This document shows positions 16,633 through 52,541 of a DNA stretch of 64,000 bases, piece by piece. The DNA comes from Isoetes taiwanensis. Its lineage: Eukaryota; Streptophyta; Lycopodiopsida; Isoetales; Isoetaceae. The position numbers were made by a program, and so were the translations under genes. The DNA lies in contig JAJEKV010000520.1 of the NCBI GenBank assembly GCA_021234155.1, forward strand, positions 1 to 64,000, given 5' to 3'. The first letter of the stretch is position 1. Every line of letters starts with the position of its first letter. Under the pieces are notes generated by a model. The model searched no databases and had not been told where the DNA came from. It saw only the letters and a list, made by a program, of their open reading frames with translations.

Positions 16633-16920
16633 TTAGTTAGTTATGCTAAAAAGAACCTCTTGTGTGGCCTGTAGCATGTCCGGGTCCTCCATATCGCTTG
16701 AAAGGACTGCTGGATTGTTGTAGATAGGATTGTTTTTTGGATCTTCTGCCTCTGTTATAGCTTTGGCATTTGCAGCTCTAGCTAAACACCTCTTAATAAT
16801 CTCGGCAGCATTGGCATTTTTACTCTGTGTAGTACTGTTTCTAGGGATGCCGATATCCTTTCTGGGTGCCTTATTCTTTGCCCCAGGTGGCCTCCCAGAC
16901 TTGCGCTTCACTCCACTCAT
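16633..16920 (-). CDS. U1 AT-hook exon (ORF1 N-terminus or separate small ORF)
   Basis: Starting at ATG 16920 the frame reads MSGVKRKSGRPPGAKNKAPR. KRKSGRPPG is an AT-hook-like minor-groove DNA-binding motif (Gly-Arg-Pro core within basic residues). The rest is Ala/Asn-rich and acidic, about 95 residues in total, with a possible donor (GAG|GTTCTT) near its end. A longer frame to 17043 exists, but the AT-hook Met is the more natural start. The exon recurs in all four units, and in U3 it is the insertion site of the 13.5-kb element. Confidence 0.6.
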   Translation of the reverse strand: MSGVKRKSGRPPGAKNKAPRKDIGIPRNSTTQSKNANAAEIIKRCLARAANAKAITEAEDPKNNPIYNNPAVLSSDMEDPDMLQATQEVLFSITN

Positions 16921-17865: not shown

Positions 17866-17889
17866 ATAGCACCTACCTCCTGCCGCAGG

Positions 17890-33684: not shown

Positions 33685-35107
33685 TTGATCCCGGATCTAT
33701 TGTCTTTGGATCTGCTTCAAATACCCTAGAAGCGTTGCTTTTGTGGTGATGCTTCCTCGAGCCCGCTTTGCATTCTAGTTCCCTCAAAGGCAAAACTTGA
33801 GGTGTTCAAAGAAGACCACAGATCCACTGAGCTAGAGACATCAATTGTTTCTTTTGTGGTCTTAGCAAATACTCTAGGTGGAAAGTAAGCGCCACTTTTC
33901 TTTGGAGGATGTAGTGCCAAACATAACTATTCATTGCCATTTGTAGTTACCCTTTTTCCTCCCTTTGTTATATTGGTTTTCTTAGGGCGGGGATTAGTCC
34001 CTAATCTTATATTACGTGGGACGAAGCATCATATCCGCAATTAATACAAGGTGATCATTGCCAAATTTGATATTTGGGTCACATTTAGGATCCTTGCCGA
34101 ATTCAATAGCCATATTAGACATGAGGTTTGAAACCTCATATATGCTATATCGAGCAATAACGACTTTCTTCAAGTTATTGGTCAATAAATTAACCAAAGC
34201 AATAAAGGCATTGGTGCATCCTTTGCGTATTCCTCTGGGAAAACCTTATCCGGGTTGTTCGACCAAGAACCAAATCGCTGGTCAAACCGGTGATGTTATC
34301 TCCACATCCATCACTAATAGGTGGCATATCACATGCGCATTTGATATATGGAGCAAAAGGACCTCAGATTTTTCTCAATATGAAATCCTCCTTCAGATTG
34401 ACACCCATGGCCATATGATTTTTAAGTTTACAATATAGACCATTGGGGCATGGGCAACTTTTGTTAAACATTTGAGTGATAAAGGAAACTAAGATTTTTC
34501 TTTCTCCATATTGTACTCCCCTTTATCAATTATTTTGTATTCTTTTTCCATCATGGTGTCAGCGATGTACGCCATGAATTTCCATGCACACGAGCGATAT
34601 AGGTGCACAAGTTCCCATGGTGCACTTTTTTCAGTACCGATCATACTCTTCACCAAGTGCCTCCACAACATGTGAAGGAATCATAGGAAAAAGTGTAGTG
34701 TTGTTTAAGTCTAGTCCGTCCTCATCATCTATTTCCATCATATCCCCTTCTATCTCGGCCGGTTGTGTTATCCGTGTAGTGCGCCTCGGCTTCCTCGGAA
34801 AGGTATAGTATGAGCGGTGTTATCAATGATGTTGCTTTCAAGGCCGAGAGTAATGGCGCTAAGCGATTTGTTTCCCACAATCGATCACTAGCTTTTTCTA
34901 CCACTTTTTCTTTGTGGTGGCTTTTTATAGCTTGCTTGACATTCTTTTTCTGGCGGAATTCACAGATAGGCTTGTCTTAAACGGCTTTTCGGTAGCCTCA
35001 AATATCTGCTGCAATTCTGGCCCCCGGCATCGGTTCGATGCACACAATGAGAAGACTTATATCTCTATATGTGTCGTCAATTATCTTGATGTAATCAAAT
35101 GCCTTCA
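33685..35107 (-). pseudogene. U3 ORF1, lineage B, frameshifted
   Basis: Colinear with 20563-21994. Segments such as YFPPRVFAK and MMEKEYKIIDKGEYNMEKEK are readable in separate frames. The junction with lineage A is at 35099-35107. Confidence 0.65.
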
Positions 35108-36102
35108 ATCATATATCGCCTAGTAGTGAAGTGAAAGATAACACATTCTTTGGAGAATCTGCTCCACATTTTTTTCACTGCTCCAATGTACGAATAATGC
35201 CCATCTTGCCTCCAATGAGATTGCATCAGGAAAGAAGGTTTCAAGATTATTCATCATAAACCAGAATACATGATCAAACCATAAAATACCCTTTATCGTA
35301 CATTGATAATGAGGGTGTACACACTTACGGTATGGCCTTCTCGGTTAGGCCATTTGTGTTATGATCCGCTTTTCTAGATTTTCCTATTTGTAGATCACGC
35401 TTTATATTGACCATCATAGGTGCACCTGCACATTTATCCGGATCAAACATGGTCAAATTGAAATTTTCTATTGCAATATCATGTTCGATAATTTTGTGCC
35501 CTTTTCTAGCCAAAGCAGCCCATCTTTTGGCGTGATGTTAAATGGCTCATTTCTTTCAATCCCAACAAAAGCGAAATAAGCTTCAGGAGGAATTGGTGCC
35601 AATAGATTATATGATTGAATATCCCACATTTTATGGTCCTTATCTCGCTGATAATAATTCCCTTTGTTCTCCTAGGGACTATCGGTGTGGGATACTTGGT
35701 GAAAAGCTTTGATGGATCATTACGTTTTTACCTTCTGATTCACCTTCTCTATTGAGATATCAGTAGCTTCTTTAGTTAACTTGATCCCTGCCAGTTTCGG
35801 ATGCACCTCAATTATCTTGATGTAATCAAATGGTCTACTTTTCATTTTGAGTGCTAAAACACCAAGCCACTCACTGAATCCCAAGTAAGCCACAAGTGCA
35901 GACAATCTATAATCTGTTAAATTCGTTTCAAGTTCGATAATTCTCTTGTGCATGCCTTCGTTATTGAGGCAACAAAGTATGGTTTGAATTGCCTTATTGG
36001 GAATCTGGCAGTTTAGTGAAGGATAGCCAAGCTTCCTAAGTTCTGGAACCCACAACATTTCTAAATCATTGTGCTCCTTTGTCCCTGTAGGCTGCACCAC
36101 AT
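35108..36102 (-). pseudogene. U3 truncated lineage-A ORF1
   Basis: First 330 codons of the U1-type ORF1 with four or five indels. The N-terminal 150 residues from 36102 are nearly intact (GYPSLNCQIPNKAIQTILCC). Confidence 0.65.
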
Positions 36103-37814
36103 GCACGATAATTATGTGTATTAGATATAAAGAGTAGATTAAATCAGTACATTTGTATAATTCAATCAAATTACAACTCAGTATAGTCCTAACTTGTAAT
36201 ATAGAATAGTAAATGTGAAAAACGTTTTTGAGAGTATCAGTAAAGGCATTCATGTTGTAAGTCAAGTGAGCTCATAGGCTGACTCTAGAGGGTATGGGTA
36301 TCAAGTCCTAGAACTTGTTAACGGAAGTTTCAGCATATATACTCTATCTTTATACTAGGGTCTTATCTAGCAAAGAACTTACTACTACTAACTTGGTCTC
36401 TTGACGAGAAGCTAGAGAGAGTCTGTCCTGGCACCACCCAGGCCCATGTTCTCTTGAGTCAAATGTGGACAGTAAGTAGAAAAATTCAGTTTATACTTAT
36501 GAAGTAGGCAGGACAAAAATCATTTTCCTGTGAGGATATGATGTTAAGCTGATGTCTCCATTTGGAATTCAGAAATGTCTAAGTGTAGACAAGAGGAAAG
36601 AATGATAAACAGAACCCTTTTCCTTTGTTCAGGATCCTTCAAAGCGGTTAACTTGTAGTTGCTCTCTCATGTATTAGAGAACATCTCACAAGTAATTGTA
36701 AAGCCATATGTTGTTGGCTCAAGAGACATGTATGTCTCTCAGACTCTTTGTTATATGAGTGTGGATCCAATAAAGAAAGTACATTCTTACCTTTAAAACT
36801 GCATATAAGGAAGCCAGTACCATAGAGACAAGATAAATCCTTAATCACCATGCACGATGTTTGAGAGCTTGGCCTATTCTTCGATGTTGGTGAAGGAAAC
36901 ACAAATATCATAAGTCAGATAATCAACTTAATTTATTTGTTCATTACCATAGTGTAGTATATTTAAGTCTTTCAGACCTATTCTGAGTCCATGGTTAAGA
37001 ATCAGATTCTTATGGATGATATGTCCTTACTAGTATTATGAAAAAAGCCGTTAAAAAGGAAATTTAAATAGCTTTTCTTGGAATGTTCCACTACGTAGAT
37101 CAGCACTTAAAATCCATCACTTGTATTTCTGAACAGATCCATACTAAAAAACTGTTTTTAAGCATGCTAACAAAATTGTTCCTTATATTATATTGTATTA
37201 CTACATGGTGCCCACAAAATATGGTCGATATGTTCATATTGCTGTAGATCTGGTTAAAGCATCTATTATATGCTATAGATCTCAGTAGCAGAGCCAAAAA
37301 GGAATATATATCATGGCAATTCTATTGTAAGTACTCAAAACGAGATAGAAAGAAGGAAAATATATGGTTCCATCTTGGTGATAAAAAGAAATGAGTAGTC
37401 TTCACTCCAAAGGATTATCAGCAATTTCCAATTGAAGAGTTCGTCCAGGTGGTCCATAGTACATATATCCATCACATAAACATGAATCAGAAAGGGAGGG
37501 TCTCCACGTTACCTGCAACCAACCAGACATACATTAGCAAATCTATGGTAATGATGAGAGGGTCGTCAGGTAAGCAAGGGAGATAGAGCCTCAGTTTTTA
37601 TCCTGCTCCTTTAGATGCATGAATGGATATAAGAATTTAAATAAAGTACTTGGTTTGCATGCATGGAAATAAACATATTTTTATATGCGAAACTTAAGAA
37701 AAATAAAAGTAAAGTAGAGTAAACTATAGTAGAAGCCTTCTTGCAAAAATGTGACTCTAAGATCTGCTTGTGATTGGTGAGATATTTCGTCCAATACATG
37801 TTGAGAACTGAAAT
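36103..37814 (-). other. U3 leader region
   Basis: Matches 14924-16632 of U1, including the candidate exon with SSQTSCMVIKDLSCLYG near 36800-36870. No independent gene. Confidence 0.5.
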
Positions 37815-37964
37815 TAGTTAGTTATGCTAAAAAGAACCTCTTGTGTGGCCTGTAGCATGTCCGGGTCCTCCATATCGCTTGAAAGGACTGCTGGATTGTT
37901 GTAGATAGGATTGTTTTTTGGATCTTCTGCCTCTGTTATAGCTTTGGCATTTCTGACTCTAGCT
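37815..37964 (-). pseudogene. U3 AT-hook exon, 3' half (interrupted)
   Basis: Corresponds to 16633-16783 of U1. The 13.5-kb element sits between the codons for RCL and ARAAN. The AT-hook half lies beyond it at 51473-51607. Confidence 0.7.
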
Positions 37965-37996
37965 CATTAGGGCGGATTTGGGGTCTGAAAATGGCC
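37965..37996 (+). repeat. Left terminal inverted repeat
   Basis: 32 bp, matches the reverse complement of 51441-51472 except for one T/C difference at position 22. Confidence 0.95.
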
Positions 37997-39346
37997 ATTA
38001 TCTTGGGCTAAAGATTTCCCGTCGGTCGCCCGGGACCAATCGGGGTTTCGCCTTTTTCTGAAAGTCGGTATTACTTGGCGGGTAGAAGGATGGCGGGGCT
38101 TACTTGGCATCCACATGGCGTATTTTCATAGGGGATGCTGGCGCTTTTATTGCAACCATTTTAATGGCCCGTATTTTTTGGGAATTAAACGCGCCCAAAA
38201 TAATGGTGACTTTGACCGCCCTCGTCGGCGTCACCAACTCCCTTGTCAAATTTTGGCCAAACTTAAATCTTTGTCACTCGGAGCCTCTCGTTGCATCCTC
38301 TCGCCTTCACTCCTCATCTGCAATCCATGTCTCCTGGTAATTTTACGTGTTCTTGCCCCATTTCTGAGAACTCCCAAGGTCAAGAAGTGGGAGGTTTTGT
38401 CTCAATAGGTTAGGTGGGTGAGTATCGCCATCAGCGAGGCGAGCATAGAGTTAGCGACAAAGCGATCAGGCGTCTTGCGGACACATTGGATAGGTAGGAT
38501 AAAAAGAGTTCAAGTTGAATTCTAGCGGTAGGAGGAAAGTGGAAAGTATAACAATACGACATGCATATACCCCTTCCGATATGGCCAAGAGCTAATCTCC
38601 ACCAAAAGCGGCTTCCCAAAATTGCGCCAAATGGTAACCACCTTAAAGCGGATCACTACGGCAGCGAAGCTATCTGTCAACTACTTAGCTGCGTGAAGAG
38701 ATAGTTTCGGCGTCGTGTGATCTTCTTATCTTTCATTTCTTTCGTTGACGCGTGTTTACAAACAAATTTATTGTGCGGGTTTATGTTTATCGGGGCGTCG
38801 TGGATGTCATTCGGCCGAAAGTATTAGTAGTGTACTTTGTCGTGTATCACATAGACATCGGAATTGTCCTTTTCAAGGTATGGATGCGTGACCTTGCGGG
38901 GTATAGGCATCTGGTTTTCTGGACATGATTATAGCGTAAAAGGTCAGGGAACCAGAGCTTGAGGCGGTTGAATTGCCCCTTTAAGTGAACTTTGTAAGCC
39001 ACGGACTAATGAGAACAATGTAATTGCAATGAAGAAATGCATGGTGACGAGGTGCAAGCGGGAATGTCAAAGCGGGGCGTGAGGATGAGTTTCAAAATCT
39101 TCACACCGTTTGAGGTATTTGCTAACATATTCGGATGGCGGGGAAGTTGAAAAGCTCGAAGACATATCGTGCTTTCTCCCCCTGCCCGATTTTGTGGATG
39201 GCTTATTTTTGGTTCCGACACGGGATGTTCGATTCCACGAATCATCGGTCAACTACGAAGGTCAGCGTAGTTAAGTCCTCCTTTAAGTTGGATACTTTCT
39301 TCCAAAACAATATTTATCGTTAATTGTCAACTAGAGCGAAGGAAGC
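37997..39346. other. Left end of TIR element, no assignable gene
   Basis: Short open frames on both strands (38104-38408 plus, 38431-38619 minus, 39006-39252 minus) without recognisable motifs. One border cassette at 38650-38722. GC content is higher than in the surrounding retroelement. Confidence 0.4.
38650..38722. repeat. Border inverted-repeat cassette 1
   Basis: Starts GGATCACTACGGCAGCGAAG and ends TTTCGGCGTCGTGTGATC; the outer GATCAC pairs with GTGATC and CGAAG/TTTCG extend the stem. Confidence 0.6.
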
Positions 39347-39833
39347 TTGAGAAAAAGAGAGGCTGCACAACTTTTTGGGAGCCGTTTGAGGACCATAATA
39401 GACACTTTCCGTGCGGTGGATATGACCGAGTATGGAGAGGGAGGAAGTCATTTATCGACCACCATGGAAGCGAATGGCCATTATCGAGCTAAGAGTGCTA
39501 ATGGAGGCGGAGGAAATTGTGGCGACTTCCATTATTTTATTGATGGCATTAGGGTTGGTTACGGGCAAGAGGGAAATGTAAAGTTTAGTGAGTTCGCGAT
39601 CAACAAAGAAATTGTCTATCGGCTAAGCGCTTTGAATCTCGGTTTTTATTTGTGTTTTGTCGATGTTTTTAGGGTTCCGTATTTTTGTCAGATATTTTTT
39701 AGGGTTAAGTACAATTATTTAAAAGCGTTACCATCATATTTTACTTTAACTTACGTTTTTTACTATTTATCTCTTGCCGGTTGTCTATTTTTTGTCGGTG
39801 TTCGTAGTATAAAGCGTCATCATTTGAGAAGCC
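39347..39833 (+). CDS. Hypothetical protein, unrecognised
   Basis: Open frame from 39347 with MTEYGEGGSHLSTTMEANGH, a Gly-rich patch, then DFHYFIDGIRVGYGQEGNVK and KFSEFAINKEIVYRLSALNL. After about residue 100 the composition becomes hydrophobic and AT-rich and probably represents 3' non-coding sequence read through. It lies directly upstream of the histone gene on the same strand. No family recognised; it may be real only in its first 100 residues. Confidence 0.35.
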
Positions 39834-40634
39834 ATGGCAAGAACTAAACAAAGCGCAAGGATCCATCAGTGGTGTAAGGCGGTGATTACATTAGTCGCCT
39901 TCTTCATCGACTCTGAAGTCTCGATAGAGATTCTCCTCCTCGACCATGCCTAACAGAAGGCCGGAAAAGAAATCCATGATGATTGACCGGGAGAAGCGGC
40001 TCAGGAGTAAGTAGGGAGGTGCACTCGGTTCGGAGACGGAGGATGAAAATGTGAGAGGCCGTGGCGAGAATATGATGCGGATTAATTATTGGGCAGCCGC
40101 CTCTTCTTGCTCTTCACTGCTCCCTCCTGCTCCTCGTGGAGGTGCCGGGGACTTCAAATCGAAGGAGGAGGCCCAAGCCGAAGGGAAGAAGCGACCAGAG
40201 AATGTAGAGGAGAGTAGGAAGAGTCGGCCGAGGAGCGACACGCAAATCTCGGGGGAGAGGCGGCGGAAGAGTCGGGCCGAGCAACAGGCTCAAATCTTTG
40301 GGGTGGGTGAGGGTAGTGGTGAGCTTTAAGAAGGCGAAGGGGTAAAAGCCATGAGATTAAGAAGTATCGGAAGAGCACTAAGATGGTCATTCCGTCTCCC
40401 ATTTGCCGTTCGTGAGAGAGATTCTGCAAGGTGTGGTGCGACATCATCCTTTGAGAATTCAAGAATCTGCCTTAAATGCTCTTCAAATGGCTTCGGGGCG
40501 ATTGGTGTCGGTCTGTTCGAGGGACTCGCAGACTGCGGCCAATACATGCAGCGGTGACTGCCATGCCCAAGGACATGCGCCTCGCTCCACGCATAAGGGA
40601 TCCCTTTGTACTATGGTCAAAATTTTATGGCTGA
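39834..40634 (+). CDS. Divergent histone H3 with long N-terminal linker, frameshifted
   Basis: ATG at 39834 opens MARTKQSAR, eight of nine residues identical to the histone H3 tail (ARTKQTAR). The H3 fold is readable in three frames: HEIKKYRKSTKMVI (40350; canonical REIRKYQKSTELLI), RLPFAVRE (40393; KLPFQRLVRE), ILQGVV...LRIQESALNALQMAS (40421; LRFQSSAVMALQEAS), VGLFEGLADCGQYMQR (about 40508; VGLFEDTNLCAIHAKR) and TAMPKDMRLAPRIRD (40557; TIMPKDIQLARRIRG). All helices occur in order. Between tail and fold lie about 500 bp of charged Lys/Glu/Arg-rich sequence, far longer than normal; intron or real extension unknown. At least three frame changes and several stops interrupt it. Not a standard host H3, which would be highly conserved. 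Confidence 0.85.
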
Positions 40635-40802
40635 ATACAACAAGAAGAAAGACCCCCGGAAAAAAGGCCGTGAAGTGCCTTTGTGTTTTTTCATATGTAT
40701 AATATTTCTTAATGCAATGGCTTTATAAGCTTAATCTCTTAGTCCATTTCTTTCTTAGAAGCCTAGCTTAGCACTTTGCATTTTTTTTTAATGTTATCGT
40801 GA

Positions 40803-40876
40803 GGATCACTGGCGGCTAAATGCGACAAGCATTGTGCTTTTTGTTGCACATAGTAGTCTTCGGCGTCGTGTGATCC
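40803..40876. repeat. Border inverted-repeat cassette 2
   Basis: GGATCACTGGCGGCTAAATG opposite TTCGGCGTCGTGTGATCC, placed between the histone gene and the next frame. Confidence 0.65.
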
Positions 40877-40899
40877 AACCTAACTAACCTAACCCTAAA

Positions 40900-41427
40900 A
40901 TGTACGGAGAAATCTCCCCACAGCGTACGTGTCCCCTTTCATGTCGACAGCGGCTACTTGAGTTCAAAAGTGTGGCGCCTTACGGCTCTAAACATCTTCT
41001 TGTTTTAAATCGTTTGCTTCGGGCCATGGATTGTTATGTGAAGTTCACGGAATGGTATGCATCCGCCCCTCATGACAACGAGGAAGTTGCGCCCGGCTGC
41101 GATTTATCCGTTCTATTGCAAGGAGTTGGACATCATGGCAAGCGATGGCGAGCTTGGATGCTATGGCGAGGTTGCTTTGCTTTCACACCAGACGCTTGGT
41201 CTCGGGCCAAGACGTCTTTGCGATGTCCACGGCTCGTGGATTCCAAAACCAGCTCTAGAGGAGGCGGCTTCCCATTTGCAAGCGGGGAAGATGTTTTTCA
41301 AGAATCTTTGCGCAGCAGCGGGCTCCTCCTGCTGCGTCCTTGTGCTTAAGAAGGTATCTTATTTCTCTTTGCCGTTTGCATTTGCTAGTTATTGCATTAC
41401 GCCGGCCAAACCGAAGATATACTGGAA
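40900..41427 (+). CDS. Hypothetical protein, unrecognised
   Basis: ATG at 40900 directly after cassette 2. The first frame reads QRLLEFKSVAPYGSKHLLVL and MDCYVKFTEWYASAPHDNEE. A frame change near 41100 continues into ELDIMASDGELGCYGEVALL, RRLCDVHGSWIPKPALEEAA and KMFFKNLCAAAGSSCCVLVL. Cys-rich C-terminal part. No family recognised. The position between two border cassettes suggests one transcription unit of the element. Confidence 0.4.
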
Positions 41428-41439
41428 ACAATGAAATCT

Positions 41440-42420
41440 TTAAGCCAAGGGGGGGTTATGTGTGATGATCGCGACTATGACGTAGAAATGGAGATAGATC
41501 TACAAGAAGAAGAGCAAGAATGTAGGAGTTTTAGCGACGGCCGCGGCCTTGGGTGAACGGAGGAGGGAGATGATTACGAAGGTGATGAGGATGGGGATGA
41601 GGATGAAAAGAAGTTTGTCCGACATAGCGCCAATTTTAGTGGAAGGCAAAGAATACTTATTGCTAAGTGATATCTTGAGGAACCCGTCTATATTCTGAAT
41701 GTGTGCTAGGGAAGGCGAGCTTATCGGTACCTTGGCCGAATGGGTAAACTTAGGCCTAGATTTTTGAAGGATTTGGACAAAGAGATGTTTGAAGTATCTA
41801 ATTATACGGCAATGCTATAAAGCTTAAAGAAGCATATGAGGAGGCTGGAGTCTCGATTTGCTCAAGATGAGGCGAATCTACCAGCGGAAGAAGAATTCCG
41901 GCGTCTCGGGTGCAAAAGCCTGCCTTGGGATCTACGAGGTTTTGGCGAGGGCCCTTGATCAATGGCAAGCATAACTTTGAAGTAGATGAGGATAAATGTG
42001 AAGAAGATAATCTTGAGGGTTCTTATTTGTGGGAAGTAGATGATTTTCTTGCCGACATGCGAGGGGCGGGGAAAGATTGAAGGACTCTACATTGTTAAGA
42101 TATATCTCAAGATTCGTTAATGGGGAGATAATCGTCTTCGTGAACTTTCAGTCCAAAGGGTGCGAGTTTGTCTATTACCTCAGGTGCATTATGCATGTTC
42201 GGGAACCATTCCCAATTGGCATCAAACCTTTGAAAGGGTGATAGCAATTGGTAGGGATGTCGTGTTACAATATTTTGACGACAAGCCCGGTCTGTGGCCG
42301 AGCAATATGTTAAATTTTTTACTGCTGGCGGCAGCTCACCCAAGGTTGGAAATTTGGGATGATTTTATGGAAGTCATTGCCTTGTTGGTCGGTCTTGTGA
42401 GGGGGATTGAAAGAGCATGA
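41440..42420 (+). CDS. Hypothetical acidic protein(s), broken
   Basis: Begins with an acidic stretch (DYDVEMEIDLQEEEQE, then GDEDGDEDEKK), continues with RRLESRFAQDEANLPAEEEF, then FVNGEIIVFVNFQSKGCEF, and in another frame WHQTFERVIAIGRDVVLQYF and LLAAAHPRLEIWDDFMEVIA before a stop at 42420. Several stops and frame changes separate these pieces. The 3' region (TATCGGTAAAATTATTTATG at 42468) resembles that of the module at 43365, so it belongs to the same repeated gene architecture. Function unknown. Confidence 0.4.
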
Positions 42421-42540
42421 AATTGGCAGACGAAGCTTGAGAAATTGGGAAGTTATATGTTTTCAACTTGTATCGGTAAAATTATTTATGTCTGAGTTGT
42501 CCTTAGAAATTCCTAATAAAAATTATTTTATTTGTATTTA

Positions 42541-42600
42541 TTCACATCGAAATACATGGTCATTTTTTGCATCATATCTAGGTTTTAGCGTCGTGTGATA
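42541..42600. repeat. Border inverted-repeat cassette 3
   Basis: TTCACATCGAAATACATGG opposite TAGCGTCGTGTGATA; a decayed left arm. Confidence 0.5.
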
Positions 42601-42672
42601 TCTATCTCGAAGAAAATGAAATATTATTGGAAAAACACAATTAATTTATTTATTCGCTCGTGTGACTCATGT

Positions 42673-42680
42673 TATAAATA
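42673..42680 (+). promoter_or_regulatory. TATA box of small gene 1
   Basis: TATAAATAGAAGAC, 94 bp before the ATG; identical 14-mer before small gene 2. Confidence 0.6.
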
Positions 42681-42766
42681 GAAGACCGATGTCCTGGCCG
42701 ACCTCGATCGCCTTCCGCCTACGCTCATCTTCTACTTCCGGCTTCCGCCTTCCACCTTCTGCTCAG

Positions 42767-43140
42767 ATGGCATCATCATCTTCCTCTAGCAAGCGACCAC
42801 GCCAAGATAGCACTCCCACCCCGTGAGGCTGCGTGGACATCACCCTTGCGGTGGTGATGAAGAGATTCAAGGAGATCCATGATGAAAACAACCGCCTCGC
42901 CGTCGAGAACAATGAGGCGGTCGACGATTAGCCTTCGCCTTCAGGGGCTGGCGCACGGCGAGGCGTTGAGCTCGTGGAAACATTAGCCATGTACCAAGAG
43001 GCGACCCGAGCTAGGCGGCGGTTGAAAGCTGCTCACATGATTTCTTGAGCCTTAGAAGATATGGAGAAAAGCTCCGTGCGGAGGATGAGAAGCAGCAGCC
43101 TTACGGCAATTTGCAGGACATGAAAATCAGCTAGAGGATC
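42767..43140 (+). CDS. Small gene 1 of tandem family (coiled-coil, Ser-rich start)
   Basis: Opens MASSSSSSKRPRQDSTPTP then a stop; in the same frame it continues VVMKRFKEIHDENNRLAVEN (heptad-like), and later TLAMYQEATRARRRLKAAH and LEDMEKKLRAEDE-like sequence in another frame. It has its own TATA box, an AATAAA-poor 3' end with TTTTATTAAAATATC, and border cassettes on both sides. Paralogous to the genes at 43674, 44664 and 45543. The coiled-coil content suggests oligomerisation or DNA binding, but no family is recognised. Confidence 0.5.
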
Positions 43141-43251
43141 ATGAAGATCCCTAGCCGTTGTATCTATCTATTTTTTGCTTCAAAGAAAAGTTTTCTCTAT
43201 TTTTGCTTCTATCTATCTGTTGTTCCAATGTATGTTCTGTTTTATTAAAAT

Positions 43252-43315
43252 ATCACACGGCCGAAATGCCTTGCTTGCAATTAGGTAGCAATCAATGGAT
43301 TTAGGCGTCGTGATC
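43252..43315. repeat. Border inverted-repeat cassette 4
   Basis: ATCACACGGCCGAAATGCC opposite TTAGGCGTCGTGATCT, with a middle (TGCAATTAGGTAGCAATCAA) shared exactly with cassette 6. Confidence 0.8.
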
Positions 43316-43420
43316 TCCATGCCGTTCTATTTTGCTTCAATGAGAAGTTCTATCTTTAGTTATGTATCGGTAAAATTACTTATGTATAGATTGTATCCAC
43401 CGAAATTATCAATAAAAATT

Positions 43421-43537
43421 ATCACACGAGCTTTCTGCGGAAGAAAAGGCGTTAGAAGAAATGCCGGTCCTTTTTCCTCACACGGAAGAAATAGCGGTCG
43501 ATTTTTCGACCCACGGCATCCTTCGGCGTCGTGTGAC
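43421..43537. repeat. Border inverted-repeat cassette 5
   Basis: ATCACACGAGC opposite CTTCGGCGTCGTGTGAC. Between cassettes 4 and 5 lies a gene-less remnant with the shared 3' sequence TATCGGTAAAATTACTTATG. Confidence 0.7.
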
Positions 43538-43560
43538 TCAGCTACTACTGAAATCCACGG

Positions 43561-43568
43561 TATAAATA
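43561..43568 (+). promoter_or_regulatory. TATA box of small gene 2
   Basis: TATAAATAGAAGAC, 113 bp before the ATG. Confidence 0.6.
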
Positions 43569-43673
43569 GAAGACTTTCTATCTTGCCTTCGACCTCAGGA
43601 TCCTCTTTCTCGCCCCTTCTTACGCTCATCTTCTCCCCTTCGCCTTCCGCCTTCGCCTTCGCCTTCTCCTCCG

Positions 43674-44030
43674 ATGGCATCTTCATCCTCCTCCGAGCTG
43701 ACGGCGCCTTCAGACTGCCCAGCGGGGACATCACCCTTCTTTGTGGGATGAAGAGATTCAAGGAGGTTCGCGATTGAAAACAGCCGGCCGTCTCCGAGTG
43801 AAGATGGAGGCGGTGGACAAAGTTAGAATTCACTAGGGTTTTTCGCATGAGCGGACCTTGAGCCTTCAGCAACATTAACCGTACCCAGAGGCCAACAGCC
43901 AGAGTAGGGTCGAGAGCGATTTAAGCGCGACACAACATTCCATGGCTAGAAGATATGGAGAAGAAGCTTCGAGCCGCGGAGGATGAGAACGCCTTGACTT
44001 CACGGCCTACGGGATCATGAAGATCCGTGA
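43674..44030 (+). CDS. Small gene 2 of tandem family
   Basis: Opens MASSSSSELTAPSD. The DNA parallels small gene 1 (GATGAAGAGATTCAAGGAG, later GAAGATATGGAGAAGAAGCT), but the frames are broken by indels. The promoter, 5' leader (TTCGCCTTCCGCC) and 3' end also align with gene 1, so the whole module was duplicated. Function unknown. Confidence 0.5.
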
Positions 44031-44115
44031 GCCATTGTATATATATTTTTGTTTGAAAAGAAAAATTTGCTCTATTTCTTGCTTCTATGGTTTCTCTTGT
44101 TTTGTTTTATTAAAA

Positions 44116-44184
44116 GATCACACGGTAGCGAAATGCCATTCTTGCAATTAGGTAGCAATCAATGGATTTCGGCGTCAGATGATC
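44116..44184. repeat. Border inverted-repeat cassette 6
   Basis: GATCACACGGTAGCGAAATG opposite TTTCGGCGTCAGATGATC. Confidence 0.75.
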
Positions 44185-44558
44185 TCCACAACGCATACAC
44201 CTCGTTGTATGTATAAATTCATAATTTATTAATGGAAAAGTGTATGTAACACAAATATCTAGCTAGATTATGTGATATAACTTGCGGGTAAATCGTAATT
44301 TGCATGTGGATGACAACGTCTATTCACATCGTGGCTTGTGGATGACAACGTCATGCCAAGGGCGTGGCATCTTATTTTGCCACAATAAACGTCTTTTCTT
44401 TTTATGCGCATACAAGATCTGGCTGGATATGACGGATCCCATGATGCGAACATAGGCTACCGTTGCCCAATTGAATGCTATAATTTCGCCAGTAGGATTA
44501 TTACACACAACTTTATCGGTAGTGCATGAACCGTAGATTCCAACGTATCTCTGGTTTC

Positions 44559-44566
44559 TATATAAA
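44559..44566 (+). promoter_or_regulatory. TATA box of small gene 3
   Basis: TATATAAAACG, 105 bp before the ATG. Confidence 0.55.
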
Positions 44567-44663
44567 ACGTCGGAGGCCTTTGTCTTCTCCCTATCTATGC
44601 CATCTTACGTTTCCTACCACATCCGCCCTCGGCCATCACTCTTTTGTTCTCCCATCACTTTCA

Positions 44664-45110
44664 ATGGCCTCCAGCTCGGTTCCATCCCCTGTAGAGATCT
44701 TGTCTCAAGTTTTGGTCAAGGAAATTCGAGAACATTCGCTATTTGAGCGGAGAGGAACGGATCCGGGCCTTCTAAAAGAAAAAAGAATGATGAAGACGCC
44801 AAGCCAAGCCTGGTTAAGGCAGAGGAAAAGGCCGCCTTCTCTGGGGAGGTGATTTTAGTGCGCTGGCAATCAGCGGCCGCCTTAGACCGTGAGTGCGGCG
44901 CTTGCGAATATAACCTCAAGAGAGGCTTAGGCCGCGAATCAATCGAGAGGCCGCCTGCCGAGCCCAACTTCGATGAGCGGGGAAGATAAAAGGTTGCGGA
45001 ATATGAGAGCGTGGTTGCGGGGGCGAGCAATCATGTTGGAGGAGAAAAAAATTATCACGCCCTCGGGGAAGAGCTTGCCCGGTGATCATAGGCATCGGGC
45101 TCCTCCTAGA
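44664..45110 (+). CDS. Small gene 3 of tandem family
   Basis: Opens MASSSVPSPVEILSQVLVKE and continues IREHSLFERRGTDPGLLKEK, a helical segment comparable to small gene 4. A frame change near 44790 leads into KPSLVKAEEKAAFSGEV and further charged sequence. The 5' UTR (CTTCTCCCTATCTATGCC) and spacing follow the same plan as genes 1 and 2. No family recognised. Confidence 0.5.
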
Positions 45111-45243
45111 GGGGCCCGTTTTTTTAATGTTTGTAATTGGTTTTATTTTTCAATGGGAAAAGTTTTTTTGACAAATGTTACAGAATAATATTACGTTTCC
45201 TATTTTTAATTTTCAATATCCGTGGTAGAGAATGACAAGGCGA

Positions 45244-45310
45244 GATCACACGGGCTTAAACCCTTCATAGGGTTTTAAAGCTCTTCAATGTGAATTCAGC
45301 GTGGTGTGAT
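45244..45310. repeat. Border inverted-repeat cassette 7
   Basis: GATCACACGGGC opposite GCGTGGTGTGAT, after small gene 3. Confidence 0.75.
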
Positions 45311-45445
45311 ATCTGATGTAGTTAGAATAGTTATTAATGTGTTCCAGGTGGGACGGTACCATTAATGTGTTCTAGCGGACAACCCGGCGAGAATCCCTCG
45401 ACCGCGATCGGCAATGGTGGTGTGTTTAATATGTTCAAGCGCTAA

Positions 45446-45453
45446 TATAAATA
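45446..45453 (+). promoter_or_regulatory. TATA box of small gene 4
   Basis: TATAAATAAATTG, 97 bp before the ATG. Confidence 0.55.
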
Positions 45454-45542
45454 AATTGAGGTCCTTGCATGTGCTCCTTCCATGGGGTTAGAGTCTTTGC
45501 TCCTCACTTCTATAATCTTAACGTCCCTCCCATTTGTCATCT

Positions 45543-46010
45543 ATGGCCTCCACATCCTCAACCCGTGATAATGGAAAACGCGAAGAGGATAGAACTCCCC
45601 GACATAGTGTTGGGTGTTCTAATGAAAGAGGTTGAAGGAGCAAGATGATCTTCTAAAGGAAAGATTCCGTTACAATTCAGCAGAAAGAAGAAGAGAATGA
45701 ATTCAACCTTCTCATGCTTCAGAGTAGCGGAGAGGCAAATCAGGCGGTTGAATAGAAGGCGGGACGGATGACATGCCCCAACAAGCGCTGGCGAGGTGGT
45801 TATGGCGGCAACGAGGATGCTAATTCAGCGAGAAAGAACACGTTGTGCTATTGGGACAGGCCGGGACATGTACAAAGAGATGGTGGGCGTGATTGGAGGA
45901 ACGTTTGGATAGGGTGATTGCTAAACGGGGAAGAAGAGATGAAGGCGAAGCGAGGGCGGAGCTGATGATGATGATGAAGATAATGAAGAAGAGCTCGCAC
46001 TGGAGCAACA
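45543..46010 (+). CDS. Small gene 4 of tandem family
   Basis: Opens MASTSSTRDNGKREEDRTPR. An overlapping frame gives IELPDIVLGVLMKEVEGAR, which aligns with SPVEILSQVLVKEIREHS of gene 3. Later there is an RRRENEFNLLMLQSSGEANQ-like segment and an acidic Asp/Glu end before a stop near 46010. Several indels interrupt it. Followed by cassette 8. Confidence 0.5.
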
Positions 46011-46097
46011 ATGAGTCGTTGTATTTTGTTTTTCAATATAACATCTTTCACAACTTTAATCAAAAGTAACCCTTTTTTATTATTATCTTGTAAAGCT

Positions 46098-46232
46098 TCA
46101 CACGACCCGAAGCCACATAAATGCAAGCAATAGCGAACTCCCTTTATTCGCGTATGATGACAAATAAGATCACATGGCCGAAGCTACGGTTGTGCAAACA
46201 AGGTTGGAGGCAAAGTACCCGGCGTCGTGTGA
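46098..46232. repeat. Border inverted-repeat cassette 8 (double)
   Basis: TCACACGACCCGAAGCC and a second left arm GATCACATGGCCGAAGC (46166) face one right arm CCGGCGTCGTGTGAA. It separates the plus-strand genes from the minus-strand gene, that is, two converging transcription units. Confidence 0.65.
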
Positions 46233-46239
46233 ACATACT

Positions 46240-48780
46240 ACACATTACAAGTATACTCTTAGATCTCCACTGTTGCGATGCTAGTGGGGCCCTAGAATTT
46301 TGCCAAGCAACTTTCCGTTTTCTCTTCAGCATTATGCCAATGGTGTTTACGACTTCTGGGTTGCTCCTTAAAGCGACCTTCTTGTCGTATTTAGCCATCG
46401 CCCTTCTATAAAACCACTCGTCATCTGTCTTAGAGGTTGGTTCCCACATTTCCACCCCCTCTTTGAGTATTCACGATGAAAGGCTATTTTAGCTTGTTTA
46501 TGCGACTTCTCCATGCCTTGTGCACTCCACTGCTGCTAGGCTTCCATACTTCCTAAAAACCAAGGTGCATGAGCCCAAAAGATGTGCAAGTAGTCGTGAC
46601 TTCACTCTCCCCATGCGTCTATGAAAGCTTTAATAAATTTGTTATTAAACGCACGAACATTTGCATCTTCTCTTGTGAGGTCCATTCTCTGAATGTATGG
46701 GAACAATTCGAGACAATGCATCCCATGCTTTTTTTTTTTTCCTCAATGCGAGCGAAGGCGCCATGCAATGCGGTCACGCTCGCATCAACAACAATTTTCA
46801 AATTCATAGACCTTTTCTCCCATCGGTTTCCATTGAGCCTCTCTATGATTCTTTTGGGAAAGCGTCGAGCTTTCATCCCTCAATTGACACCTTTTACGAG
46901 GCACACTTGTTCTTCCTGCCCGTTTTCATCGAGCTCTAATCTTACATTGCCACCATGCAAACACCTTACGATAGAGAACATGTTCAACTCTCACGAATTC
47001 CTTCCTCTCTTCTCTTCTTGTCTGAAATGTTCCACCACGAATGCGGCTCAAAAAATATCATCTTGTCGATGATTCTCACAAAGCGAAGTGCAAAAGTCTT
47101 TGAGATATGAACCTCTCTAATGGAATGGGGAAAATGCCATGGAACTTGGGATCTTCTTCTCCTCTATTAGGAGCATTTGCTTGGTTAAGGGACAAGGTTG
47201 AAAGCTTGATCTTCCCAATGATTTGACTTCCCTTGCATGATTGCAAAGATGAATACAACTTTGCATGTTCCTTGTCCTCCTCCACTTATGTTGTACATTG
47301 CTTTCTCAGTTTTTAAATCAGACGCCAAGTGAAAAATTACTTTGTAAGATCCATAGTGATCTACTTGCAATTTTCCCCTCCCTCGAATCTAGATATTAGA
47401 CTCGGGATGTCGGTTTGATTGAACACCCATTTCAAAACCTCGTGGGTTTCTTCGAACTTTAAAGAGACCTAACCACCCGGTGTCATCTTGATTGACATGA
47501 GAACCATTTTTTCAAGACGCTTCTTCTCCTCCTCGTCACAGTCACCTCTACATCTTTTTTGTTATTCTTGTTGCTCTTTGATTTAGCATGTGCAATTGCA
47601 TTCTCAATTGCTCTATTCATGATGACAACGGATACCCTCTCATACTTCTCAAACTTGGTCAGTTCCATTTCATCCAATTTTATGCAAACTTCAATCTCAC
47701 CATTAGTTTTACGCGAATCTGTTAAGTCATAATATTTGACAAGGAATTGTAAGAGAGTAACCAGGTCAACCCAAAAGATTATTGCGTTCATTCATTCCAA
47801 CTATATCACAACAATCCTTGCCATTCTTATCTTTTATGGCTATGGCAGGACCAGCACATTCAACGTGGTGCATCTCTCCTAATATGGCATACACCATCTT
47901 TGTCCTAGTAACCCTTGTATTCTCGACAATTTGTGGGCGTGGGCCGAATACTTTTTTTTTGTGCCCATTCTTTTCAACGCCGTGGAATGGCTTGAATGAA
48001 AACGGTAACCAAACCCTCGATGCCTACATCATCACAAGCGATCAGGTACATCACGGCCGCTTCTAACTTCTTGTAGATCTCCCCTAGTACCATTTCCAAT
48101 ACCATCTTCTTGAGAGGAGAGTTGTAGGGCTGACAAATCATGTCCACTATCTCCCCGTTTCGCCGCTAGGTTCTTCACTCGTAACCAAGATTGCTTCTAG
48201 TTTCCCGGATCTTAACCGGCCTTTGCTAGTGTTGTAAAAGCGGACCTTGTGGGCGTGACCACTCGCGTCTGAATGCACCTGATCCAAACTTCAGTTCCTC
48301 TATCGGTCGATAATGCTTCTTCCTTTTCGCAAGCCAAAGGGTGTTTTCTTCAAATTCTTTAACCTACATTGAAGCCCAAAGTTTGCTCTTTCGAGCTCTT
48401 GGATCTTTTCTTGCGGCTGCCCTATCACCAATTTGGACTTCTCCCTTCATTATCTCAAAAGTTTCCCTCCCCAAGCCGTCATTCCTTTCCTTCATCACGA
48501 TTGGAGTAATGAAGCCGAGAAAAAAAAATTTCTTTGGTTTAAGTTATAATTCTCTTTGTGACAATCGGAAGCGACTCATCTCAAGGAACTGTATTCGATT
48601 CGAATGCCTTCATCCTCTCTCAATCTCTCACAATATCCCAAGAGGCCCGAGTTACGTCACCACAAAATCGGACTAAACTTGAAACGTCCGAAATGGCGGT
48701 TTCGCCACTCAACGGATCAATGGATATAAAGCGCCATCGCCCGGATGTCGATACTTTTGAGCACGCAAAGGCGCAACATG
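46240..48780 (-). pseudogene. Large minus-strand gene, possibly transposase-like, frameshifted
   Basis: Protein-like blocks follow each other leftwards in changing frames: PIVMKERNDGLGRETFEIMK and KGEVQIGDRAAARKDPRARK (near 48460), KEFEENTLWLAKRKKHYRPI, PLKKMVLEMVLGEIYKKLEA, IVENTRVTRTKMVYAILGEM, LVTLLQFLVKYYDLTDSRKT, IFHLASDLKTEKAMYNISGG, FHGIFPIPLERFISQRLLHF, then RFPKRIIERLNGNRW and VVDASVTALHGAFARIEEKK (46876-46619). The Asp-Leu-Lys...Gly-Gly-Gly block loosely recalls transposase-like proteins of large plant and animal elements, but I cannot name a family. It is the longest coding unit of the element and the best candidate for its mobility gene. Confidence 0.45.
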
Positions 48781-48949
48781 TCGAGTCTAAGTTCTTATTT
48801 TTTAGACCTCTTTTTTGCGATTGAAAGGCTGGAGCATATTCACGAAGTGAGTTGGATCCTTATCCACACATCATTTGGAGCTTCCATAAGCGTGGATGCG
48901 ACGGGTGAAAATGAATGTGTACAATTTGTATGCCCCAAAAGTTAATTAA

Positions 48950-49450
48950 GCCGTTTGAGACTCGGTCAGGTACTAACCTCGCTTTTTGAAATTTGTAACG
49001 CGTGCATATGGAAAAGTCCATTCTCCTACAATCCATGCTTTTTTATACAAAGCAAATTCAAAATTCGAATTGTAGGGGCGGGACTGTATTGGGATGAAGT
49101 AAAGATCCCGGTTCTGAACTTTTAAGGCTAATGTCAGCCCTCAAAACGAAAGTCTAATACAAAGCTTCAACCTACACATTCAAATTTTGAAATGTAGAAG
49201 GCGGGAATGGACTCTAAATGAAAATAGGGCAAGACAAGAATCGGTGATGCGCATGATTGGTATCCGACAAACCAAGAACAGTCGGCCATGAGTTGCCGGT
49301 ATGCTATAATGCAAGTGGCTTTTAGAAGCCAATGTTCGTCAATAAATGCGACAACAAGAGAATTAAATACATATGAAGCCATAGATATCACGATTCCCCT
49401 TATTAGGGAGAATATTCCAAGCAAATCGGCCGGGAAAAAAGGAAATATGG
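48950..49450. repeat. Inner copy of right subterminal repeat
   Basis: About 500 bp that recur at 50930-51440 in direct orientation (shared blocks CCATTCTCCTACAATCCATG, CAAAGCTTCAACCTACACAT, GCTATAATGCAAGTGG). The outer copy runs into the terminal inverted repeat. Confidence 0.75.
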
Positions 49451-49588
49451 CGTGGAATGGTTGATAGGGAGGCCATTTTAGTTCATAAAACATAATATAA
49501 CTTGGAATGATAGATATTTTATATGCAAATGGGAGACTATTGTTGAAGGACTTGTGTTTAGTTTTAATTTGACAACAAATAAGAAAGT

Positions 49589-49658
49589 GGATCACACGAT
49601 CTTAATTTAGTGTGTTCCATTTTTGTTGCATATGTACTATTAAGCTTGGTGTGATCCT
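49589..49658. repeat. Border inverted-repeat cassette 9
   Basis: GGATCACACGATCTTAA opposite TTAAGCTTGGTGTGATCC. Confidence 0.7.
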
Positions 49659-49951
49659 TGAAAAATAATATGCTCTTTGAAAAGGGATGATGACTTATGT
49701 ACTTAAGAGTGATAAACATGTACAAAAAAAAAAAAGTTAGGTATTCAAATGGAATTAGAAGCAAAAAACTTTTACATTCAAAATTTTTATGGCCGCGATG
49801 GCTTTACATCATTTTGTAAATTTAAATGCGGGAGGCTTCAACTAGTCACAACAAAAAGCCCGGAGGCTTGCAGTCATATGGTAAGAAGCTGGAGGCAAGC
49901 TCGACTAAGAACAAGGAAAAAAAAATAAGAGGTGCTCTGCCCTAACAAATT

Positions 49952-50373
49952 TCATTCATCTGCTTCATCATCTGCAAAAAAAAATAAGAAATAACCGTTA
50001 GTTGAATGCTTAAGAAAAGAAAGAAAACATGCATGTACCATGAACTAACGCCATGAGCTCCTCGAAGTCAGCAGATTCGTCTTCAACTTCTTCATCTTCT
50101 TCATCATCTTCGGCTTCTTCTCTTTCTGGTAGACCACTCATTTTCTGAAGAATCTCCTATCCAGCCTTCAAGAACACCTGTGATGAACTCCTGCTCCGAA
50201 ATTTCCTCTGATTCCTCATTCTCTGATTCCTCGTCAAAGGAATCAGAGGAATCAGAGGCATTCAGAGCAAGAACCGTGGGCAGCGGAGGGAACTGCGGAG
50301 GGAACACCTCTTCCAGCCGTAATAGGCGCCTCTTGGAGGACACCTCGGCTCTTAAGTAGCTGGATCTCTTCAT
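49952..50373 (-). CDS. Small acidic protein, two exons
   Basis: ATG at 50373, MKRSSYLRAEVSSKRRLLRL then a Ser/Asp/Glu-rich segment (DSSDSFDEESENEESEEISE) and EFITGVLEGWIGDSSE. A one-base shift near 50135 leads into EEAEDDEEDEEVEDESADFE and FEELMALVH. A GT donor at 50038 and a TTTTTTTTGCAG acceptor at 49972 join in phase to DDEADE and a stop at 49952. A basic head with a very acidic tail resembles chromatin or nuclear chaperone proteins in composition only, which is suggestive beside a histone gene. Family not recognised. Confidence 0.5.
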
Positions 50374-50568
50374 GGCGATGGACTAGAGAAATTGGGCGGA
50401 GGATCTAGCAAAGATTGGGCGGAGATTGGGGAGAATGGGCGCCCAATCTAGGCTGGAATAGATATAGGCTGGATTAGGCGTGAAAATCATTAGGAATGAT
50501 TCGTATTCCAGTCCTATCAACCATCATTACATGCCATTATGTGCATATCTCAAATTTGAGCCATATCT

Positions 50569-50682
50569 AATATCTTCCTTTTTAACCTTATACCTAAATA
50601 TCCAATATCTTCCTTTTTAACCTTATTCCTAAATAGCCAATATCTTCCTTTTTAACCTTATTCCTAAACCTATATGATTTGA
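50569..50682. repeat. Three tandem 38-bp repeats
   Basis: CCAATATCTTCCTTTTTAACC followed by TTATTCCTAAATA, three times head to tail. Confidence 0.9.
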
Positions 50683-50929
50683 GTTTAACCAGAACATGAA
50701 CACCGATATAATTCAGATTTAACATACTATTTAATACCAAGATGCTTTCGTCACACTATGTCGATAATTGGGATTTAAAAACACTCCAAACCCTCCTCGA
50801 CAAAACCACGTAAGTGCCGGCCTCACTTGTGTTTAAGTTTAATTTGACAACAAGCAACTTCCATCTTGTGTAGATCGTGACGGGTTGAAATCAAGGTGTG
50901 GTATTTTTATGCCCCAACACAATTAAGCC

Positions 50930-51440
50930 GTGTGAGTTTAAGCGTCCGCATACTAACCGTTTTTGAAATTTGCAAGCGTGCATATGGAAATCGAAAAGTC
51001 CATTCTCCTACAATCCATGCTTTTATACATTAAGCAAATTCAAATTTCGAATTGTAGGGGGCGGGAAGCCTGTATTAGGATGAAGTGAAGATCGGTTAAG
51101 GCGCAGCCGCAGCGCCTCGAAATGAAAGTCTGATCTGATACAAAGCTTCAACCTACACATTCAACTTTTGAAATGTAGAAGGCGGTGGACGCCAAGACGC
51201 TTACCAAGAGACACCGGCCATGAGTTGCGGTATGCTATAATGCAAGTGGGCATTTTAGAAGCGCCACGTGTTGCATCAGTCCGTCTGACAACCAACAGAA
51301 TTAAATACATATGGCGCCATGAATGTGCAATCCCCCTTATTCCGGAAGAATATTCCAAGCAAATCTGTAATTATGAGAGTTTGGTATCCTAGGTGGCATG
51401 GGAAAAGGGGCGGAAATATGGCGTGGAATGGCTGATGGGA
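50930..51440. repeat. Outer copy of right subterminal repeat
   Basis: Direct repeat of 48950-49450, adjacent to the right TIR. Suggests an internal duplication of the element's right end, with the acidic gene lying between the copies. Confidence 0.75.
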
Positions 51441-51472
51441 GGCCATTTTCGGACCCCAAATCCGCCCTAATG
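51441..51472 (-). repeat. Right terminal inverted repeat
   Basis: Reverse complement of 37965-37996 with one mismatch. Confidence 0.95.
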
Positions 51473-51607
51473 AAACACCTCTTAATAATCAAAGCAAAGC
51501 ATTGGCATTTTACTGCGGTGTAGTCTTGTTTCTAGGGATGCCGATATCCTTTCGGTGCCTTATTCTTTGCCCCGGTGTGGCCTCGGACTTGCGCTTCCTC
51601 CACTCAT
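51473..51607 (-). pseudogene. U3 AT-hook exon, 5' half
   Basis: Continues the exon broken at 37964, carrying the AT-hook end; several small indels relative to U1. Confidence 0.65.
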
Positions 51608-52541
51608 GTTTGTGATGGCGGAATGGAGACAATGAGATAGAAGAGTATGATCTGAAATGAAGGAATATGATATGAAAGGAAGACTACTACCTCAAAAACA
51701 GCACCCATTAATGCTGGAATTCCCTCCAATTTGGTCTTACATTATCTCTAAATAAGAGCGGTTTGCATTTTTACGCGCCTCCGGTATCACGGTGTCTTCT
51801 TATTCAATGCATTCGGCCTAGTTAGGGCGGTCCAAAACCCTAAGGTCATTTGAATACAAAATATGTATTTAATTCTACCATTGAAACCCTTAGAAGTTAG
51901 AATGAGTGAGATGAGTGGAATGCCTCCATGTTCAATATGAATCCATGAATATGTCAATATTCATGGTATCTTTATTTTTTGACGGCACCCTGTATTCTAA
52001 GCATGATAAAAACTTGATACCTCAAGAACATGGTAATATGTTGGATTAATCATAACCATTAAATGAAAACTGAAGTAAACCAGAATCAAAATAGGATAAT
52101 CAAGAATAAGCAAGAATAAACCTATGCTGTCTAAGCCCATAACTTTTCTATAGGTCTGTCCATAGGTCCAAACTTGGGATTGATCCCATAGGTCCATTCC
52201 CATGTTATAATCAAGGGAAAGAAATATTCTATGTTTCATTAAATTAATGTTAATGGTGTATCGTAGACCATACCAGCAATTTGCTCAAATTATACGATAC
52301 ACGTAAATTGGACGTAGTCATTTTATCCTATGGTAATACATCCTGATTATGACCTCACAAGTAGTCCCCATGATGGAGAGAGAGACATATGGAAACATAT
52401 GTAGGCCTAGACAAACTGCCCTACTAGGTCAAACTGTGAACTTGTATCAGACCCCACCAGTGTAGTTTCAAGCTACATCTACAAAGTCAAATAAATCAGC
52501 CAGTTCCAGTCCAATATATATTTATATTTATATATGTATAT
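51608..52541 (-). other. U3 5' region
   Basis: Colinear with 16921-17865 and fused to U4 through the same TA-rich junction as U1/U2. No gene. Confidence 0.5.

Follow-up and report, generated by a model that had tools for sequence, protein, structure and literature searches.

Why does a plant transposon carry a histone gene of its own? The question is raised by a stretch of 64,000 nucleotides of the lycophyte Isoetes taiwanensis (contig JAJEKV010000520.1 of assembly GCA_021234155.1; hereafter the window), in which a mobile element bounded by terminal inverted repeats (TIRs) contains a gene for a divergent histone H3, followed on the same strand by an open reading frame that we call ORF-B and, on the opposite strand, by a transposase candidate, gene D. 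We found that a related pair of genes, H3 followed by ORF-B, is also carried by long terminal repeat (LTR) retrotransposons of the Ty3/gypsy group in the same genome, which suggests that mobile DNA uses histones of its own. We put the probability at roughly one half that the histone serves counter-defence by histone replacement, a reading drawn from sequence in which an H3 without K9 would shield the chromatin of the element from silencing, with ORF-B as its putative partner.

The histone H3 of the TIR element

The search space was the I. taiwanensis assembly, 1,658,258,908 bases in 1110 contigs, and the best candidates of each H3 search were scored: 134 of 8760 with the H3 of a relative (locus L059) as query, 150 of 6089 with the decayed H3 of a sister copy (K996), and 150 of 8705 with the Histone profile used genome-wide. 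Against canonical plant H3 the window gene gave E = 0.02 in tblastn. Against the H3 of L059 it aligned over 39834-40670 in changing frames, the best piece at E = 1e-25, and an H3 profile matched the K996 copy at E = 7e-16 and the window copy at E = 0.007. Chance similarity, considered on the E value of 0.02 alone, is rejected by the sister copies and by intact relatives. Two such relatives, L059 and L060, hold an open, one-exon H3 that starts with MARTKQTARIHPGG or MARTKQTTRIHPGG and carries about 150 inserted residues ahead of the histone core; they score 106.9 and 108.2 bits in Pfam Histone, above the cut-off of 26.4. The window gene is thus a genuine H3 but a pseudogene. The first-pass annotation of this DNA had claimed a divergent H3 belonging to the element, which these relatives and scores confirm, and an ARTKQSAR tail, which holds in that a real H3 starting with MARTKQSAR is present, although the window gene itself is broken and changes frame. 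Among the 134 loci scored with the L059 query, 12 lack a stop over residues 1-291 or more and 122 are interrupted or partial.

The tail departs from that of canonical H3 at a position central to silencing. All five TIR copies start with MARTKQ(T/S)ARIH, and position 4 is K and position 9 is I in each of the seven copies read (these five with L059 and L060), so that a canonical tail with K4, K9 and K27 was not found: K4 is kept and K9 is lost. Both L059 and L060 retain the core residues R49, R69, R83, H113, K115, D123, L126 and R129 (canonical H3 numbering), L059 alone also R72 and K122, and the core suits a tetramer-forming H3. Loop 1 is four residues longer than that of H3; CENP-A and Arabidopsis CENH3 are two residues longer in the same alignment.

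Between the cores of L059 and L060, nonsynonymous divergence (dN) is 0.027 and synonymous divergence (dS) is 0.165. Changes between the two genes number 10, 7 and 26 at codon positions 1, 2 and 3, and are spread nearly evenly over the three positions when five decayed copies are compared with L059. In a tree of 20 rows and 93 columns with host H3 and CENH3, which the first-pass annotation had proposed, the TIR H3 pair stands apart from host H3 on a long branch (0.81) and does not join CENH3; the branches are long, 2 of 14 inner branches are well supported, and the placement is not fixed. A pseudogene captured by chance, the outcome which that annotation had set against its own claim, is in part at odds with an H3 that recurs in copies, is uninterrupted at the 12 loci, shows a third-position excess and is not close to host H3 in a tree of sparse support. 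The canonical H3 genes of the host are 97-98% identical to plant H3, and a CENH3 query over the genome gave no host CENH3 distinguishable from other H3s.

A high-copy family of TIR elements

The inverted pair spans 33 bp, 37964-37996 with 51441-51473, with one mismatch. Left ends could be aligned at 18 of 20 loci, 4 of the 18 being altered, and the base preceding the end varies among them, which is why we set the TIR at 32 bp; the termini are CA..TG. The 32-bp inverted termini described in the first pass are exact at 37965 and 51472 and are shared by other copies. With a 105-base left-end query, the best 40 of 954 first-look candidates, the window copy included, were 88-100% identical, and the scored copies are spread over many different contigs. 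This search for further copies with the same TIR, suggested with the original description, thus found many, and four were fetched: both TIRs are present in all four, which are 87-91% identical to the window copy; three are about 13.55 kb long, and one of 11.6 kb lacks window positions 42483-44443, a 2-kb internal gap. Given the many left-end matches and the identity of these four copies, the family is old and abundant, and the window element is no singular insertion. Four of its genes (H3, ORF-B, a coiled-coil gene and gene D) were compared with relatives and all are broken, so that the "compact autonomous genome" once read into the window copy is not borne out; it is a defunct member of a family of large DNA transposons.

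A related gene pair in Ty3/gypsy retrotransposons

Of the 150 Histone-profile matches listed (the best of 8705), 15 start at profile position 2 like canonical H3 and 135 start later. From the latter we chose eight loci, most with long ORFs, and read about 10 kb at each. All eight have the order H3 fusion, ORF-B, gag on one strand, with a further ORF-C between ORF-B and gag in seven (not found in L014) and protease-reverse transcriptase in seven (not in the stretch read of L011). Two elements read to both ends, E1 and E2, are about 12.9 kb long, and their two LTRs share 90.7% and 93.7% identity, respectively. The domains recognised by Pfam are Histone, Ty3_capsid, RVP_2, RVT_1, RT_RNaseH and Integrase_H2C2, with rve at 30.5 bits, just below its cut-off of 32.6, and the H3-bearing LTR elements belong to Ty3/gypsy by the criteria for that group. 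They may be more remarkable than the TIR element in the window.

The histone core in these retrotransposons reaches 142.6 bits in Pfam Histone (L009) and is strongly constrained, with dN of 0.010-0.020 and dS of 0.29-1.01 among L009-L012. It has a loop 1 of ordinary length and is fused to an N-terminal part of about 370 residues that is unrelated to the TIR H3 tail and found nothing at E <= 0.01 in a protein-database search. Seven of these ORFs were aligned, and none of the five whose N-terminus lies in frame starts with ARTKQT. The tails of the two H3 types differ, an ARTKQT end in the TIR H3 and a long unrelated N-terminal part in the LTR H3, while their cores are 58% identical. We also considered whether the window H3 might be a nested piece of an H3-bearing LTR element and rejected this, because the LTR ORFs gave one weak tblastn match to the window (E = 0.006), the two genes are unlike in tail and insert, and the TIR H3 forms a family of its own.

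ORF-B ties the two element classes together. The gene order H3, then ORF-B, is the same in both, and a profile of the LTR ORF-B has partial matches in three of the five TIR copies (E of 1.8e-9, 4.6e-7 and 2.3e-6 in a set of 30 frames). In hhalign the ORF-B of L060 aligns with the LTR profile at 96.9% probability over 374 columns, against 0.1% for a gene D control. The L060 frame is open over 413 residues and stops short of the C-terminal portion of its LTR counterpart, being probably cut short; that of L059 is broken. An ORF-B query was scored on the best 85 of 7169 first-look candidates. Searches of Pfam, NCBIfam and PDB with ORF-B gave nothing useful, and a protein-database search gave nothing at E <= 0.01. 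Between the LTR loci L009 and L013, gag is 86% identical in amino acids with dS of 0.51, while identity in ORF-B is 43% and its dS too large to be estimated; over the 10 pairs compared, gag identity is 59-93%, the ORFs compared differing in extent. At the level of sequence, this suggests that the cassette is exchanged between elements or evolves much faster than gag.

Gene D, insertion sites and transposon class

Gene D accompanies the TIR H3 far beyond the window. Of 150 H3 matches listed, set beside 150 listed for gene D (at least 150 exist of each), 39 have a gene D match within 20 kb, where about 0.5 would be expected by chance, both counts being among the matches listed; in 37 of these pairs gene D is downstream on the opposite strand, and 27 lie at 4.0-6.9 kb. 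Relatives of gene D have uninterrupted frames of up to 931 residues. They form a large, diverse family (the best 67 of 3820 first-look candidates were scored with query P0002), and the relatives P0001-P0003, 33-50% identical, lie on short contigs of public collections.

All 13 matches of one D protein in a PDB sequence search were to RAG1, in the same stretch (E 0.11-0.43), as were all six matches of a gene D profile against PDB (E 0.23-0.46). RAG1 was also the sole Pfam match of P0001 at E <= 1 (E 0.0038; 15.8 bits, cut-off 25). Other gene D pieces had unrelated weak matches in Pfam, which gave no transposase match for the element; known transposase families were unmatched. The motifs LDEME, DLKT, CLYC, LHxxxAH and GMEK occur in this order in the sequences that span them, D2 being read as E in L049; the patterns were written from the same sequences and are a description, not a blind test.

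Insertion leaves no duplicated target at two sites. The joined flanks of the window element match three empty sites, 16738-16833, 24795-24887 and 59498-59580, with not a single base added or missing where they meet, and the empty site reads CTCTAGCT-AAACACC in three other units of the tandem array, with units 93-97% identical, into one of which the element is inserted. For copy K996, the 120-base join of the flanks matches 120 bases elsewhere at 98% identity, and 33 matches span the whole join, 30 of them exactly 120 bases long. Insertion at these two sites thus occurred without target-site duplication (TSD). The flanks of K1096 form a 7-base near-repeat that includes one mismatch, those of K1078 form no repeat, and relatives of the K1089 target are 5-19 bases longer than the flank join. 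A regular TSD was rejected for lengths of 2-12 bp, with shifts of up to 3, in the five copies examined. The two targets are CTAGCT/AAACAC and GGCTAT/AGCCTT, and no strong sequence preference was seen in 18 left flanks.

Two known groups were compared with the element. The CMCT clade, as described in PMC12730594, likewise has CA..TG termini and D, D, C(2)C, H(3-4)H and E motifs (gene D has C(2)C and H(4)H), and the weak PDB matches of gene D to RAG1 are a further likeness. We do not file the element in that clade, since its members make TSDs of 2-5 bp and the element makes none at two sites. Spy transposons (PHIS; PMC4482050) resemble it in lacking a TSD, but insert within AAATTT, from which the targets here differ. 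With its CA..TG ends, RAG1-like gene and lack of a TSD, the element may represent a new transposon lineage.

Possible roles of an element-borne histone

Transposons are silenced through histone marks. In the reading that we favour, the TIR H3 would be produced, pair with host H4 and join nucleosomes, and such nucleosomes would be unable to bear H3K9 (or K27) methylation on that histone, because the TIR H3 is without K9 and the LTR H3 without a canonical tail. Packaging in such nucleosomes would make mobile DNA resistant to heterochromatic silencing. Gene D would move the TIR element, and ORF-B would be a putative partner that travels with the histone, at a guess a chaperone or a targeting factor. 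It is possible, though doubtful, that the two unrelated element classes draw on a common, portable chromatin kit of two genes, an H3 immune to silencing and a dedicated partner, which would replace host nucleosomes on their own DNA and be exchanged between elements, its H3 core under host-like constraint and its tail stripped of heterochromatin lysines. If histone replacement is true, an own histone without mark-bearing residues would counter host defence directly and in a way open to test, and a histone can be a cargo common to DNA transposons and LTR retrotransposons. These genes also form a natural set of H3 variants, constrained in the core and free in the tail, that could be used to learn what parts of H3 the plant nucleosome needs.

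Several points weigh against histone replacement. The K9 argument is based on seven copies, and selection on the TIR H3 comes from a single pair, with an overall dN/dS of 0.28 and 68 indel bases in the alignment. The H3 tree, with 2 of its 14 inner branches well supported, cannot separate one capture of H3 from two, and the two H3 types need not share a job, since the LTR H3 is without the ARTKQT end. A whole ORF-B was not seen in the two relatives read of the TIR family, the LTR ORF-B profile is weak in the window copy (0.09) and in K1078 (0.77), and no relatives of ORF-B outside this genome appeared in the database searches made. The likeness of gene D to RAG1 is weak as well (E 0.11-0.46, and below the cut-off in Pfam).

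The histone might instead be a by-product of transduplication, a host H3 captured by chance and spread as passive cargo without benefit to the element. That TIR elements take up genes is well documented for plants (PMC3538342), and the 122 interrupted or partial loci, like the window copy, are what such cargo would look like; the third-position excess between two intact TIR copies, the equivalent gene pair in LTR elements with its strongly conserved H3 core, and the kept module order speak against it, and we consider it unlikely. Known integration tethers read histone marks through chromo- or PHD-type domains, and the H3 or its K4 tail might anchor a complex of transposase or integrase at selected chromatin, as could be read from the K4 end kept in the TIR H3 and from the fusion of the LTR H3 core, predicted from sequence, to its long N-terminal part. 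Pfam found no chromo- or PHD-type domain in the proteins scanned, however, and the 18 left flanks are without strong sequence preference, which leaves integration targeting quite unlikely.

The length of loop 1, in which the TIR H3 exceeds even CENP-A and Arabidopsis CENH3, raises the idea of a centromere or segregation device, in which a long-tailed H3 would act like CENH3 and aid transmission of the element. Such a device is improbable in view of the H3 tree, which does not join the TIR H3 to CENH3 within its sparse support, the ordinary loop 1 of the LTR-borne H3, and the many different contigs on which scored copies lie. An endogenised DNA virus that used its H3 for genome packing is highly improbable. 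H3 is indeed present in some DNA viruses (PMC9145170), and the element has several gene-like stretches on both strands, two of them preceded by TATAAATAG. The element nevertheless fits a transposon in its constant 32-bp TIRs, its many dispersed copies and its RAG1-like gene, and no capsid, polymerase or packaging gene was among the Pfam matches of the scanned pieces, in which broken genes were covered in part and profiles of nucleocytoplasmic large DNA viruses (NCLDV) and Polintons were not searched as such. Family matches in the element pieces, apart from Histone and LTR-element domains, are weak and below cut-offs. The virus-like element entertained in the first-pass annotation is thus not supported, nothing virus-like having been matched, and, within the same limit on profiles, a viral origin is not disproved.

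Relation to known systems

A transposon-borne H3 is already known from one precedent, a hAT element of the fungus Pyrenophora tritici-repentis that is 5.6 kb long, with a 2.3-kb form, and accounts for 26 very similar H3L genes, for which its authors think of drift (PMC3538342). Like the Isoetes element it is a TIR DNA transposon whose H3-like gene has insertions in the N-terminal tail and stands beside an additional ORF of unknown function. It differs in its fungal host, hAT transposase and size, whereas the element of 13.5 kb described here has many more candidates, no TSD, a conserved H3 core and a module common to LTR retrotransposons; the two are set apart by description, not by sequence. 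The first-pass annotation overlooked both this published element and the related two-gene module in LTR retrotransposons.

Other systems share single aspects. Fungal TET/JBP dioxygenase transposons (PMC12730594) also spread one epigenetic cargo gene across unrelated transposon superfamilies; the cargo in Isoetes differs in being a histone accompanied by a second ORF and in occurring in both DNA transposons and LTR retrotransposons. VANDAL elements are plant DNA transposons encoding a protein that counters silencing, as reported for VANC (PMC5735166) and proposed here, but VANC binds specific DNA motifs and is no histone. Viral histone H3 (PMC9145170) is likewise borne by a parasite and thought to depend on host histones, its carriers being DNA viruses, not transposons. 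A histone cargo common to two transposon classes was not found in the literature searched, preprints and most subscription papers lying outside it; as far as that literature goes, nothing earlier matches the module of two genes in both element classes, the fusion in the LTR elements, the scale, the constraint on the core or the element without a TSD.

Other features of the window

Table 1. Positions of the TIR element, its parts and surroundings in the window, and of H3-bearing LTR loci elsewhere in the assembly
Feature	Position	Strand	Basis or remark
Whole TIR element	37965..51472	+	13.5 kb; one decayed member of a high-copy family
Left TIR, 32 bp	37965..37996	+	CATTAGGGCGGATTTGGGGTCTGAAAATGGCC
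Right TIR, 32 bp	51441..51472	-	one mismatch to left TIR
Histone H3 gene, decayed	39834..40670	+	starts MARTKQSARIH; long tail insert, then core; tblastn with L059 H3
ORF-B, decayed	40990..42197	+	homologue of the ORF after H3 in LTR retrotransposons; tblastn with L060 ORF-B, E = 1.7e-66
Small gene-like stretch, first copy	42720..43319	+	ORF with MASSSSSS, TATAAATAG just upstream; ORF and sequence
Small gene-like stretch, second copy	43621..44188	+	ORF with MASSSSSE, TATAAATAG just upstream; ORF and sequence
Small gene with acidic C-terminus, broken	45522..46011	+	E = 1.5e-23 to relative L056
Gene D, transposase candidate, broken	46246..48349	-	N-terminus may extend further right
Internal duplicate of right subterminal region	48900..49427	+	72% to 50879-51365
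Small acidic ORF	50104..50382	-	no Pfam match
Uninterrupted paralogous (empty) target site	16738..16833	+	
Tandem array units	13920-17868, 21985-25906, 35099-37964 with 51473-52524, 56681-60656		
H3-bearing LTR loci	L009-L016 with L045, L046		additional ORFs upstream of gag; H3 core at the end of the first
LTR element E1	C1068:5296500-5315400		read to both ends
LTR element E2	C1034:15216400-15234300		read to both ends

Within the element, the two small gene-like stretches are duplicates of each other at 69% identity, and the gene with the acidic C-terminus has an open frame of 165 residues in L056. A second copy of the right subterminal region lies inside the element, as though the small acidic gene flanked by the two copies had arrived with a second end. 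The array units around the element carry ORFs like reverse transcriptase, one matching Pfam RVT_1 at 18015-19031 on the minus strand (E = 2e-7) and a second at 11170-12090, also minus, under the cut-off (E = 1.9e-6); from their motifs they may be Penelope-like. Between the gene-like stretches of window 38701-46233, a motif around GGCGTCGTGTGA or its near-variants occurs in five copies, two of them at most about 100 bases upstream of TATAAATAGAAG, and these motifs may be shared promoter or terminator elements.

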